Assembly (NCBI GenBank): GCA_030295235.1
Contig: AP026146.1
Coordinates: 434,001 to 498,000 of the forward strand
Direction: 5' to 3'
From: Fistulifera solaris
Lineage: Eukaryota > Bacillariophyta > Bacillariophyceae > Naviculales > Stauroneidaceae
DNA: 64,000 nt
Shown here: positions 14,218 through 21,872 of the stretch, piece by piece
How positions within the stretch are numbered: position 1 is the stretch's first letter
Layout of the letters: each line of letters begins with the position of its first letter
The notes under the pieces: generated by a model
Database searches by the model: none
What the model was told of the DNA's origin: nothing
The model's input: only the letters and a program-made list of their open reading frames with translations
Program-made: the position numbers and the translations under genes

Positions 14218-14676
14218 CTCAGTCATAATTAGCGCATGTATAATAGTAGTACTAATAGCAATGCTTATTGACAAGTTTCTCAAAGTTACCTTGTCTTTTC
14301 TTAATGAAACAATTCCAAAATAAAGCTAAAAATAGCGGTTCATCAGCTCGCGGCCGCTTTGGTGCAATATTTGAATCCAAAATCGCAAGAACTAGAATAT
14401 CCGGACACAAGAAGAAGCGCTCCTGGTACCAGGTATCAGTGGATCATTGCTACGGTCACCTTTCCATTGCGGTTCTGGTTATTTATGATTCACGAGGTTC
14501 CGAGCCTTTTAGATTTACTTGTAAAGTGTCATCCGTCCCGCATCGGCATGGCTCAGTCCCTGCATGGAGACCCTAAACCTTATACGGCGAACGCGACACT
14601 CAAGCCGCAGAGACAATAAAAACGTTTACTTTGAAGTTCTCTTTCTTTTAGGTACGGTGATAGAATTAACGGAATA
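14218..14676. other. intergenic / possible 5' leader
   Basis: An open frame from about 14359 to 14619 has weak coding character and the sequence ttcttttag at 14643-14651 could be an acceptor, so an upstream exon of the next gene is possible. Not supported enough to call. Confidence 0.3.
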
Positions 14677-15564
14677 ATGACCCCATGGTTTCCTTTTCTG
14701 CTGTTCCTCGAAGACCCCAACGTTCATCAATGGGTGGTGACGGGAATTCTGGTTTCATCGTTACCGACGTATTTGGCCTTGACGTATATTCCCGAGACGT
14801 GGGGCAAAACCTTGACGACCGATTCGCTCTTGGTGCGATTCTTTCCTTCGATATCTGCACCGGTTGCGTGGTTTTTCTTTGAAGTTCCGAATCTCTACTG
14901 GTCGGCGTATTACTGGAACGTCGTGTCGTCGCTGGAACAGCACATTTTGTTGTCACTCTTTGTCTTGCATTACGTTCAACGAGCGATCCTGTATCCCTTG
15001 ATGCTGGCGAAATCCACGAAACGCATTCCGTTACCGGTTGTTTTAGCGGCGTTTGCATTCACAAATTGCAATGGATAGTAAGTGAATGCAATGCAGGTGT
15101 GTTTTTTTGATAAAGGCGCACGACAAAAGATCGCTCTCACATTATTCTGAATGTCACAAAAAACAGTGCACAAGGATATGCATTGAGTCACACGGATGTG
15201 TCCAACAATGGACACTATCGCCCCTTTTCATTCTCCTTAGGATTACTGCTCTTCTTCACTGGCTTTTTCATCAATTTACAAAGCGACGCCATTCTGCGAA
15301 AACTACGGCATCAAGGCGACGGATATCAAATTCCGTACGGAGGAATGTTTGGTTACGTGTCGACACCACACTATTTCGGAGAAATTGTCGAATGGATGGG
15401 ATTTTGTATCGCGTGTCACAGGAATGGCGCTTCGGTGGCGTTTTGTGATTTATACGGCCTCTAATTTGGTACCCCGGAGTCGAGCGCATCATGTTTGGTA
15501 TCAGACAACGTTTGGAGACAAGTATCCCCGAGAACGAAAGGCGATTGTGCCGTTTTTCTACTAA
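14677..15564 (+). CDS. 3-oxo-5-alpha-steroid 4-dehydrogenase (steroid 5-alpha-reductase) family
   Basis: Two exons, 14677-15077 and 15167-15564 (89-bp intron), 265 residues. This is a polytopic ER enzyme family that reduces the C4-C5 double bond of 3-oxosteroids with NADPH. Motifs match SRD5A1/2: HYVQRAILYPLM, then CNGY at the exon joint, LRKLRHQGDGYQIPYGGMF, TPHYFGEIVEW and the C-terminal ASNLVPRSRAHHVWY with YPRERKAIVPFFY. A four-T run at 15441-15444 carries one base too many; without it the conserved C-terminus is in frame. The physiological substrate in a diatom is probably a sterol intermediate (inference). ATG 14677 gives a slightly short N-terminus. Confidence 0.88.
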
Positions 15565-15676: not shown

Positions 15677-18600
15677 TCATTCTTCGTCGCGCAAAAGTGA
15701 ATGAAAGCGCCGAGGAATACTGTCCCACCATCGCTCCGGTATCTCAATCACGCCGTTGTTGCCCACGACCTGATGAAAACAATGAGATCAGAGAATGTAC
15801 TCGACAATATCGAGTGACAAGAGGCATCATGTGGTGTATACACTTACATCCAGCGAATCTCGGTACGCTCCGCAGAGTTCCGATCGTTCTGCGTCATCTA
15901 GTGCACGAGAATGGAGTTCGTAAAGAATCTCAGTGAGCTCGGGGTATTCTGGCTCTTGTAATAAGCAGTGCAAGGCAGGGCGGAGTTTCTCCCACGAACG
16001 CTTCGGTAAGGTAATCTTGCCGCCGTGTGTTTTGATCTTTGCCGGAAATTGTCAATGAGAACTCACAAAAAACAATATTTGTCTGCAACACGTTGAAATC
16101 ACTTACATCCAATGACTTGATATACGCAAGACCAAATTCCGCTGCATCTAGTTCATCCGTTGAGTTATTCCACAAGACATGAAATTTGCCCATCAATTGA
16201 CCGTACATTTCCATACCAGCCGCATTTGTCATCAGCTGGTATGCCGATTCTAACCAATTCAGATTTGACTCTACTTCGGTTGAGTTTGAAGGATCTTCAC
16301 TCGTATCTTTCGAAACGCCTCTGCAATTCAGTTCCATAAGGTCGAGTCGAAGGAGACGCTGGTCCCAGCTCACAAAATAGAGGTCGCCATCCAAGTCTCC
16401 GCTGGAAATCTGCGGTGGGATGGCAGGCATACTCTCGTCAAAACCAAACACGATGACACCGAACGGTAGCGATTCAAGAAAGCTCCATTGGGATTGCGCC
16501 ATGCCGTGAGGCTTTTTTGTCAAAATAGGAAGTCGACGCGCATTAGCGCGTTCCACAGACGGATGGCGGCATACAAACAGGGACTTTATTTCCAGCGGTT
16601 TGTTTCGATAACGTATACTTCGAAAACCAGAAAGATAAACCGTGCCAGGAGGAATGCTCTCTGTGGGATCGGCAACTCCGACAACATTGGCATGTTGGAC
16701 AGTCTCCGCTTTCTTTGAACTTGCAAACATACTAGTCCACTCGCTTTCGGTCACTTTAAACGCTTTTTCTAGAAACGTTCTGATGCCCTTTGACAGTCCT
16801 TCTTGAATGGCTTCTCTATCAGTCTTCGTGGCAAGACGAGGGGTCTTCCAGAACTTTTCAAGAGCTATGTTTGTTTGCGAAGGAAAAGTTTGTTTGATCA
16901 GAATTACCGCCTTGTCTTGAAACTCTCCATGTTTTGAAGGAGGAACCTTTTTCATTGAGGAAGGAAGCTCCACCAGATAATCACTCGGGCTATCTTTTAA
17001 CATGAGCATCCCTTTGAAAATTCCAAATTTAGGGCATACAATCCGGATTTGGAGTGCAATTGCCTTGCAAAACTTGCTGCACATCTGCTCATTGTCGAAT
17101 AGCTCAAAAATAAGCTTTTTTGAAAAGAAACCGCAGCCATCGTTTCCTCTTTCTACAATTTCTCTGCATATAGACGATGGTTTTGTAAAGATGCAGCGGG
17201 GCTGCGCAACGAAACCAGTCTTCTTTGCATCAGTAAAAAGGAGCTTAATTCGGGCAACCACTTTTTCCGGTTTAAGGTTACAAAAGTCAGCCAGTTTTTC
17301 CAGTTCAAGATGCAGATTGTTTGCTTCATGCTTATCGCGCATAGCAACATAGTAGCATTCAGTTGGAGTACGTGCTTGATGGAACTTTTTCCGTTGCACG
17401 TTTCTCGACTTCGCTTTCTTTGGTTGGAAAGCGTACAACAACTTCCACGTTTCTCCCTCCTTCAAAAGAGTCGTGTGGATTGTTCGTGAACTTTCGTTAG
17501 CGGGACGCAAGCGATTTTCAAAAAAACAATCTGCAAGACAAACGCGTTCAGGCAAAGCATCGCTCAGTTGAATTTTATGAACGTATTTATTGCTTGAGAG
17601 AAAAATTGAAGACAAATTACAGCCTGTCAGACTGAGAAAGAAATATAATGATGCAAATAGCGAGATTACTCACCCAATTTGAAGCGGCGCTCCGCCGAGA
17701 AAGAAAGGTGCGGGGTTACGTGGAGGTTCTGCCGCTTTGCGAGGCTTTGCAATTCTTTGTTTTTTCGTCTTCACTTTCACGCTTTGTGACGACGCTTTCC
17801 GCTTGGATGGAGCCGATTTTCCTCGCGAGGACGAAGACGACAAGTTCGCACGCGGGGGCCACCGATTGTGACGCGCCGTTGGAATGTACATAACCGCAGC
17901 TTTCAAATCAGACGACACAATCATTGTACCGCTGTCCAAGCATGTGTGATTCGTATCTTTGTCGTCACAACTATTGCATCGCATTCTTTTTGTCATCCCC
18001 TCAACTTTCTTCCAAGAAGACTCGCTGAATTGTCCCGCCACAACCCATGCATCTTGATCGTTTAGCCATTTGATTTTTATACTGCAAGATTCCGTCTACG
18101 ACTTGCCTTGCAAAAATACCTTGGCACTGGACGTAATCATCAATCTTCCAGCACGTGTGCGGCAACCCAGCAGAACAGGAAGGACAGGGAGGAAATCGCT
18201 TACATTTGTCGTCGAATTCTTCAATGGCATATTTCGTAGCGTTGTCAGCAAAGTCTTTAAGCCACTGTTTCTTTCCGTAACCCTCCCACTTGATATAGAC
18301 TTCCTTTTTGCCATTGTCATCAAAGCGGCAGCCGTGCCACTCTTCAATGCTATACAGATCTGGCTGAAGTTCAGCTTCATTGGTATAGTCGTTGTCGTCT
18401 AGCAAGGAGATATCAGTAGCAAGACCCTCCATGGCATCATGACCAGTTTCCATAGACTCGGTTGATGATTCGGAATCGATATCTGCATCATGATCCTCTT
18501 CTTCTACTTCAGAGCTACTGGAATTGGGTTCAGATGTGAAATAGCACAAATTATCAACATATGCATCATCTTCGTCACCCTTGTCGTCATCCTCATTGGA

Positions 18601-19086
18601 TTCGTTGAGATGTTTGTTGAATTTGGGGAGCCTACTGCGCTGAAGAGGAAAATCATCAGCCCAGCCTTGATTTTGTCCTTTTGCTTCATTCCTCACAATA
18701 ATTTCGTCGTAGTTGGCAGATTTAACCGACAACGTGCTTCCAGTTCCACTGTTGTAGACTCCTCGAGATGATGCGTCAAGCTTACGGCGTGGTTCTGTTG
18801 CAATCACAAAATCTATCGAGACATCATCATCATCATCGCCAGGAGAAAACTCATCGGATGGCTGTAAGCTGTTTGGCTTTCGATGCCCATCTTCCTCAGT
18901 GTCCTCCTTCTCGGGTGAAATAAAGCGTACACTGGCTTTTGGTTTTGATTCTGGATACAAAAAGTGGTCGTCGGCGGCGCTCATGTCTTCGTCTTCGGTG
19001 CTGATCGGCGAAATGCACACCTTGGGACGCTCCGAGGCGCGTTTGAGACGGCGAAAAAGAGGTCTGTTCGCCCAAGAAAGATCCAT
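15677..19086 (-). CDS. chromodomain-RNA-dependent RNA polymerase fusion (RDR-type)
   Basis: Four exons: 19086-17674, 17631-16107, 16036-15848 and 15769-15677, about 1072 residues. Residues 243-293 are a chromodomain (LYSIEEW, then EVYIKWEGYGKKQW and YAIEEFDD), with cage positions Tyr245, Trp267 and Tyr270 present. A second chromo-like unit follows at about 316-360 (YVQCQGIFARQ, then YKIKWLNDQDAW), flanked by CPSC and CNSC clusters. The C-terminal 600 residues are a cellular RNA-dependent RNA polymerase of the RNAi type with the catalytic DLDGD at 883-887 (16383-16397) and IKTHGGKITLPKR further on. An extra base in a five-T run (18074-18078, + strand) interrupts exon 1. After removing it all exon phases agree, which is the main evidence that this is one gene. 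It likely makes dsRNA at methylated chromatin (inference). Confidence 0.86.
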
Positions 19087-20083: not shown

Positions 20084-21872
20084 TTAATCACGACACAAAG
20101 CGTCCATATTTTCTTCGCGCTCGACACCCTCGTATTTCAAAGTGAAGCGTTGTCTCCGTCTTCGTCTCGTCAGGGAGATGATCCAGCAGGATAAGAGTAC
20201 CATACATATCAGTAAAACGAGCGCACCCATCACAATCCACTTTAAACGGTTCGAGGCCATTCCACCGCAACATACACACGACCGTGCCACACTTTGCTCT
20301 AAATCTTGTCGTTGCGTCGAGATGCGAAACTCTTGACCATACACAAACGTCTTCATCATGGCGAATGCCACATGAGGTACATCGAGCGGAACCATGTGAC
20401 CCGCATTCAGCACTTTCAAATAAAACAAGTCTCTATATTGTTTGATGTATCCCGCCAGTTGATTGTCGACCAGAAACGCGTACCGATCTGCCATTCTCCA
20501 TGCCTCTCGATGTTCCCACGGCATGTTCTCCAACGCCGCTTCGGTGCCTACATGATGACACACCATATCCAAGACACCATTGTAAAACAGCAATCGCACA
20601 TTTTGTTCCAAAAGAAACTTAATTTCGGGTATAACACCGTGTCCATCCAAGTGTCCGAGTTGGTGGAGAGGTTCTTTTGACATTCGGCAAACGGCAACAA
20701 GGCGGTGGAAGCCGCTTCCGCCGCATGCAGGGCTTCTAAAACCGAGTCATTACGCAAATACGCTTCCAAGGTTGATTTCCCCGGGGGAAAGGTCCGAGGT
20801 CCGGTCTTGTATTCGACACGACGAACATCGAACTTCGATACCTTGTATTCGGAATCCTTGCCCATGGATTGATGAACGATATCGGGTATTAAATTGTCAC
20901 ACACGGAGGACACTTCGGGCAAATGGCGTTGACATTGACGTTCTTTCGTCATTTCCGCATGTACTTCGGACAATCCGACCAATCCCATCCCGTACGCGGC
21001 TCGAGCACCCGCGTATTGATGGTACGGATCAATCCATCCATTGCCAATGGCGGCACCATGAATCGGTATTTGTAACTTTGAATGTTGATTTTGTTGTAAT
21101 ATGTGGGTCAGAAAGAGAGGAATGTATCGTCCCGCATAACTTTCGCCAGCAAAGAAGACTCGTCGATGGACGGTATGGTTGGATGCGAATTTGTCGGCGT
21201 GCAATCGAAAGAAAAGATTGCAAAAAGGAGTAGAAATCGGTTTGCAGTTGTTCATCTGCTGTGGTATAGGTGTTTTGATCTGTTTTGTAACTAAGTCCTG
21301 TCCCAATGGGTTGATCGATGTACAACATGTAAGCGGGAAGACGATGCCAACTGTGTTCCGATGGCTGGATCTTTTCGTCTTGTACCTTAAAAGGTCCATT
21401 TTCGAGAAAGACACCATTCATACTAGAACAACCGGGTCCTCCATTTAACCAAATAATCAAGGGAACATCTGGATCGTCGATTTTGGTCGTTTCAGTTGTT
21501 GTATCCGGTGCAAAAAGCCAGTAAAAGAAAAAAGCGAGTCCCATCGGATGAAACCGGCAAATGCCCCGCCCAATGAGCCGTTAACAAGTAATGTGAAATG
21601 TTGGGTAAATTTGACACCAAATGATCATCGGGATGCTTCGGTATAGTTGCTTGAAAGGGAAAAGCTCGTCGTCGTCGTCCCGCAACGCGTCGTTGTCTTT
21701 GCCAAAAGGAAGAATGACGAGTGCAACTTTTCGTCGGCCAAAGACGAATTGCTCGACTTTGCTTCCAGTTCAGTATTGCGACAAGTAACGCGACACATAT
21801 ATACGCCATGGGACCTAATAGCAACTGATTGTTTCTGTCTTTTTGGTTTGAAAATGAACGACAACGATCCAT
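20084..21872 (-). CDS. serine carboxypeptidase (S10) with C-terminal membrane anchor
   Basis: About 595 residues. The N-terminus has a signal anchor (MAYICVALLVAILNW after a short polar lead). S10 hallmarks in order: HWAGHLPV, PLIIWLNGGPGCSSMNG, FFAGESYAGRYIPLFL (catalytic Ser), then FYNGVLDMVC (Asp) and LNAGHMVPLD (His). Near the end WIVMGALVLLICMVLLSCWI is a membrane helix followed by a basic tail, as in KEX1-type Golgi carboxypeptidases that trim propeptides. The frame breaks three times: extra base in the A run 21528-21533, extra base at 21212-21215, missing base near 20637. Correcting these gives 596 codons exactly. I treat it as one intact gene. Confidence 0.9.

Follow-up and report, generated by a model that had tools for sequence, protein, structure and literature searches.

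A Fistulifera solaris gene that appears to join a divergent chromodomain to a cellular RNA-dependent RNA polymerase

Can a single protein both read a silencing mark on histones and copy RNA on the same chromatin? In fission yeast, two complexes share the steps that lead from the histone mark to the copying of RNA. The question is raised by a gene of the diatom Fistulifera solaris, located on the minus strand between 19086 (ATG) and 15677 (stop) of a 64,000-nucleotide stretch of contig AP026146.1 (positions 434,001 to 498,000; hereafter the window). Open reading frames (ORFs) and splice sites define four exons. This one exon set holds both a chromodomain-like module and an RNA-dependent RNA polymerase (RdRP) module, the latter with its catalytic motif and predicted fold, and the genome also carries Piwi, paired RNase III and CXC-SET genes. 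The reading favored here, with a probability of about 0.56, is that one protein would use a methyl-histone-reading chromodomain to tether an RDR/QDE-1-type polymerase to silenced chromatin, in a self-reinforcing loop.

The polymerase is the clearest part of the gene. It passes the curated cut-off of the Pfam RdRP family (PF05183) with an E-value of 6.5e-26 (91.6 bits against 23.8). Its DLDGD motif is unchanged in 31 aligned rows, and D[LFM]DGD is present in all 66 relatives recovered at E 0.01 or better by a search that scored only the 7990 candidates sharing most words. The predicted structure has the fold of the RDR2/QDE-1 family. Judged by sequence and structure model, the enzyme is a cellular RdRP of the RDR/QDE-1 type, which bears out the sequence-only reading, an earlier interpretation that had named an RDR-type polymerase with DLDGD.

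Joining the two modules in one protein is less direct. That reading had the four exons joining in phase, which they do not as assembled, since the raw frame stops at codon 362 (18003-18001). Its half-stated caveat about a T run at 18074-18078 proved real: its 1072-residue protein requires that one base be skipped there, together with a 42-nucleotide first intron. Once this is done, Tyr245, Trp267 and Tyr270, the CxxC motifs at 301-304 and 370-373, and DLDGD at 883-887 are all found as described. The second gene copy is informative here. The Fistulifera solaris genome has 42 homoeologous pairs (PMC5935921). In the assembly of 51.7 Mb and 61 contigs, RdRP matches occur on C35, which holds the window, and on three further contigs, C34, C5 and C6. 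C34 pairs with the window, most of whose 64 kb can be aligned to it at 73-90% identity, and the chromodomain region has copies on C34 and C35 only. The C34 homeolog has one open 381-residue ORF (L008 3421-4563) spanning the site of the window's break and covering the later acidic part, chromodomain 1, both CxxC clusters and the linker up to the exon-1 donor. A programmed frameshift at the T run was rejected, because the homeolog is open across the site without one.

The modules could instead belong to two adjacent genes, one for a chromodomain protein that ends at a stop within the exon-1 donor and another for the polymerase. In both copies the exon-1 frame does run into a stop that overlaps the donor, yet any GTRAGT donor placed in this phase would produce such a stop. 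In addition, the first methionine of the exon 2 polymerase frame lies within the polymerase domain in both copies (at residue 568 of the window copy and, in the homeolog, 98 residues from the beginning of exon 2). With no methionine ahead of the domain, the polymerase frame requires an upstream exon. The two parts are separated by only 42-84 nucleotides, and both are carried within one sequence by P0014, a 1143-residue metagenome protein whose order is four chromodomain repeats, CxxC...PHTCW and polymerase. Two genes are therefore very improbable. A single polypeptide with chromodomain and polymerase, as proposed by the sequence-only reading, is well supported by these comparisons: an unbroken homeolog frame at the site, with the same arrangement of exons; a polymerase exon that lacks an initiating methionine ahead of its domain; and the matching order of parts in P0014.

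The break itself may nonetheless be genuine, in which case the window copy would encode a chromodomain protein of at most 361 residues, if any protein at all, and the function would fall to the C34 copy, provided that it is intact. The stop at codon 362 is consistent with this, as is the fact that one copy of a duplicated gene can be lost in a paired genome. Exon 2 also differs strongly between the copies, with synonymous divergence (dS) of about 1.9. Against such a loss, one-base frame breaks occur at 13 distinct sites in other ORFs of the window (8694 to 60791, none in the gene studied here), counted where both flanks have at least 80% amino-acid identity to the homeolog, though coding status is not proven for every one of these ORFs. 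With looser criteria 21 and 22 were flagged, some of them within antisense ORFs. The second polymerase gene on C6 is likewise interrupted where its C5 counterpart is open. Because of these breaks we infer that the one in the window is likely an assembly or sequencing error, and gene models from this assembly call for care, given frequent breaks between homeologous frames. The ratio of nonsynonymous to synonymous divergence (dN/dS) is well below 1 after the break, though a very recent break would look alike. A truly broken copy is thus improbable.

Constraint between the copies extends over both modules. From chromodomain 1 to cluster 2, dN/dS is 0.29 (bootstrap 0.18-0.46); it is 0.32 for chromodomain 1 alone (0.13-0.84), 0.28 for the basic linker (0.14-0.63) and 0.18 for the polymerase (0.12-0.25). 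Constraint is not clear in the acidic part (0.64, 0.38-1.21), and residues 1-92 give 0.55, a value without bootstrap. Exon 2 (window 16107-17592, L008 1852-3337) is far more diverged than exon 1: its dS is near saturation, against 0.33-0.50 in exon 1 and 0.67 in exons 3-4, and nucleotide identities for exons 1-4 are 82%, 64%, 73% and 88%. Exon replacement or gene conversion is a possible source of this pattern.

As a single sequence, unit 1 (chromodomain 1) matched only chromodomain proteins in the PDB (8 of 8, E up to 10): Chp1, which was the best match, HP1, CDYL2 and RE36324p, which we take to be Rhino. With a profile of the two copies, 13 of 14 matches were chromodomain proteins and the remaining one was Cas9; for one HP1 chain the better-matching stretch lies outside the first chromodomain. 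The reversed sequence gave no chromodomain protein among nine matches. E-values of the chromodomain matches are weak (0.06-1.8). The aromatic cage positions assigned earlier to Tyr245, Trp267 and Tyr270 are conserved in both copies, and the Tyr-Trp-Tyr set aligns with CDYL2. Together with cluster 1, which is kept in the homeolog and has a similar counterpart in P0014, chromodomain 1 matches the P0014 profile at E 5.6e-7, equaled by none of 200 column shuffles. Unit 2 was previously described as a second chromo-like unit with flanking CxxC clusters. The clusters stand, and cluster 2 is also kept in the homeolog; the unit is weakly supported and chromo-like only, with a profile match to the P0014 repeats (E 1.1e-4, none of 200 shuffles as good) and no chromodomain match in Pfam or the PDB.

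Several results weigh against this assignment and the function built on it. Pfam Chromo (PF00385) scores unit 1 of the window below its cut-off (13 to 14.4 against 25.1 bits) and gives nothing for unit 1 of the homeolog, and the gene is not among the 13 matches of a whole-genome Chromo search. The 381 residues of the homeolog match two PDB sequences only, a cilia protein (E 0.13) and Rhino (E 0.21). A lone-sequence structure model of chromodomain 1 and cluster 1 is poor (predicted local distance difference test score, pLDDT, of 69) and gave no usable chromodomain match. Without the cluster, chromodomain 1 is marginal against P0014, with one of 200 shuffles as good, and profile comparison finds no mutual resemblance between units 1 and 2. 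A tree joins the window copy and the homeolog at support 100 on a long branch and places P0014 away from them with poor support; a constrained clade of the three was not rejected (p-value of the approximately unbiased test, p-AU, 0.161; 29 of the 66 relatives). Finally, the homeolog is itself broken by one base in the N-terminal part, upstream of the chromodomain, so neither the window copy nor the homeolog has a continuous frame in this assembly. Unit 1 is best described as a likely, divergent chromodomain rather than a filed Pfam member, because the Pfam score of this divergent sequence is under the cut-off.

The same score leaves room for a real fusion in which the chromodomain-like part serves as an adaptor for proteins or nucleic acid, as the KOW domains of sister polymerases may, and the polymerase acts in general or antiviral RNA interference. 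In favor of an adaptor, PF00467 (KOW) takes this place in 14 of the 66 relatives and in the C5 gene of the same genome, and the P0014 repeats appear by eye to lack the third aromatic residue, at the place of Tyr270. The conservation of Tyr-Trp-Tyr in both copies and its alignment with CDYL2 speak for a reader instead, as does the best single-sequence match to Chp1, a heterochromatin reader. An adaptor role is accordingly considered unlikely.

The fusion is not alone; judged from domain matches, polymerases of this family are combined with several other domains as well. Precomputed domains in the 66 relatives include, besides KOW, PF21743 (presumably Tudor-like) in three and Chromo in two, P0014 and P0051. 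In P0014, Pfam Chromo reaches 49.7 bits against the 25.1-bit cut-off, three repeats pass alone, and PF14061 matches over the last repeat. In P0051, the chromodomain pair (374-493) follows the polymerase catalytic motif. A doublet profile was built from P0014, P0051 and the two Fistulifera copies, so that its matches to the first two are given in advance. It yielded weak, unconfirmed doublets, likewise behind the catalytic motif, in P0054, P0058, P0055 and P0047 (E-values for 66 sequences). An insert in P0031, chromo-like by eye, had one unrelated PDB match and is not counted. An AP2 domain (P0027) or PF21743 (P0049, P0050, P0053) stands beside the polymerase in further relatives. No homolog of the chromodomain region was found at E 0.01 among 232 candidates, the P0014 region from last repeat to linker found only itself among 505, and none of 30 pattern matches in viral contigs was confirmed as a relative. 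In the same genome, the C5/C6 gene pair (L009 2914-5259 and L010 2516-4712) has KOW motifs before the RdRP domain. These arrangements have suggested a broader and more tentative proposal, for which the chances are near even: algal RdRPs may constitute a family in which the modules that address the enzyme to chromatin (chromodomain arrays, KOW, Tudor-like) are exchangeable. The window gene would then be a single-protein heterochromatin amplifier, whose one chain would recognize methylated histone H3 and produce double-stranded RNA at the same locus, a task that fission yeast divides between two complexes. Chromodomains would have been acquired more than once, ahead of the polymerase here and in P0014 and behind the catalytic motif in P0051.

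Features of the gene are collected in Table 1. All three introns have GT-AG ends in both copies, and the start codon and donor of exon 1 line up with the homeolog. For intron 1, the 42-nucleotide form of the sequence-only reading (17632-17673) does keep phase, as does an 81-nucleotide form (17593-17673), which is nearer the 84-nucleotide intron of the homeolog and, by eye, fits the homeolog protein better. The longer form gives a 1059-residue protein with DLDGD starting at 870. Lysine and arginine make up 24% of the basic linker (residues 408-473). Of the flanking ORFs, both of which have partners on C34, the one at 14635-15564 (plus strand) resembles by eye a membrane protein of the steroid-reductase type, and the one at 20084-21580 (minus strand) a serine carboxypeptidase.

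Table 1. Features of the chromodomain-polymerase gene in window coordinates; residue numbers follow the 1072-residue protein.
Feature	Position	Strand	Remarks
Exon 1	17674..19086	-	start codon, acidic N-terminal part, chromodomain 1, two CxxC...HTC clusters, chromo-like unit 2, basic linker
Chromodomain 1 (likely)	18199..18360	-	residues 243-296; Tyr245, Trp267, Tyr270
CxxC...HTCW cluster 1	18148..18186	-	residues 301-313; possible zinc site
Chromo-like unit 2	17991..18135	-	residues 318-365; contains the frame break
T run with one-base frame break	18074..18078	-	raw frame ends at stop 18001-18003
CxxC...HTC cluster 2	17940..17978	-	residues 370-382
Basic linker to exon-1 donor	17674..17864	-	residues 408-470
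Intron 1, favored form	17593..17673	-	81 nucleotides
Intron 1, sequence-only reading	17632-17673	-	42 nucleotides
Exon 2	16107..17592	-	main RdRP part; starts at 17631 with the 42-nucleotide intron
DLDGD catalytic motif	16383..16397	-	residues 883-887
Exon 3	15848..16036	-	C-terminal polymerase part, HGGKI motif
Exon 4 and stop codon	15677..15769	-	

Candidate partners for a silencing loop are encoded in the genome. Piwi-domain matches occur at three places. One of them (L019, C7:127985-128785) lies about 6 kb from paired RNase III domains (L030, L031; C7:135104-135910), and the two are possibly neighboring Argonaute and Dicer-type genes. On C1, a CXC motif stands 114 nucleotides ahead of a SET domain in one frame, which we take to be the E(z) arrangement. 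Related components have been described in Phaeodactylum tricornutum. Transposons are the main location of trimethylated lysines 9 and 27 of histone H3 (H3K9me3 and H3K27me3) in this diatom (PMC4504042), and Dicer-like, Argonaute-like and putative RdRP genes are also reported (PMC4247016; PMC3145265).

From these elements, we infer the following sequence of events. The chromodomain, a candidate reader of methylated H3K9 or H3K27, would tether the presumably active polymerase to silenced chromatin, where nascent transcripts would be turned into double-stranded RNA. Dicer would cut this RNA and Argonaute would carry the pieces back, allowing a histone methyltransferase to renew the mark and close the loop. 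A self-reinforcing module had been suggested from the sequence-only reading, and the idea is plausible.

Chromodomain proteins and RDR polymerases are each known; their fusion is new so far as searched. In agreement with the earlier remark that the combination has no standard description, none was found among the matches listed in the open-access literature, most subscription papers being outside the reach of that search. A natural fusion, if true, would be a direct sign that the mark reader and the RNA-copying enzyme work at the same chromatin. The self-reinforcing loop could then be tested on one protein by altering a few positions. Genome editing has been reported in F. solaris (PMC13276009). 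Little is understood of RNA-directed silencing in algae, and the gene further suggests that these organisms exchange addressing domains on a common polymerase.

Comparison with known and newly found systems places the gene among several partial counterparts. The C5/C6 polymerase belongs to the same family (34% identity to C5) and has a variable module in front, but this consists of KOW motifs where the window gene has a chromodomain. P0014 shares the order of chromodomain repeats, CxxC...PHTCW and polymerase, yet differs in its four near-identical repeats, the third cage residue that is missing by eye and its one cluster, and the tree does not join its polymerase with that of the window gene. 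Around the core, plant RDR2 and Neurospora QDE-1 are larger proteins and, to our knowledge, have no chromodomain; the window gene combines a short core with a chromodomain and CxxC clusters ahead of it. In fission yeast, the RNA-induced transcriptional silencing complex (RITS: Chp1, Ago1, Tas3) and the RNA-directed RNA polymerase complex (RDRC: Rdp1, Hrr1, Cid12) are separate complexes that bring a chromodomain reader and a cellular RdRP into one silencing loop. By analogy, the exon-joined window protein may work like RITS and RDRC without being a member of either, with reader and polymerase fused in a single chain.
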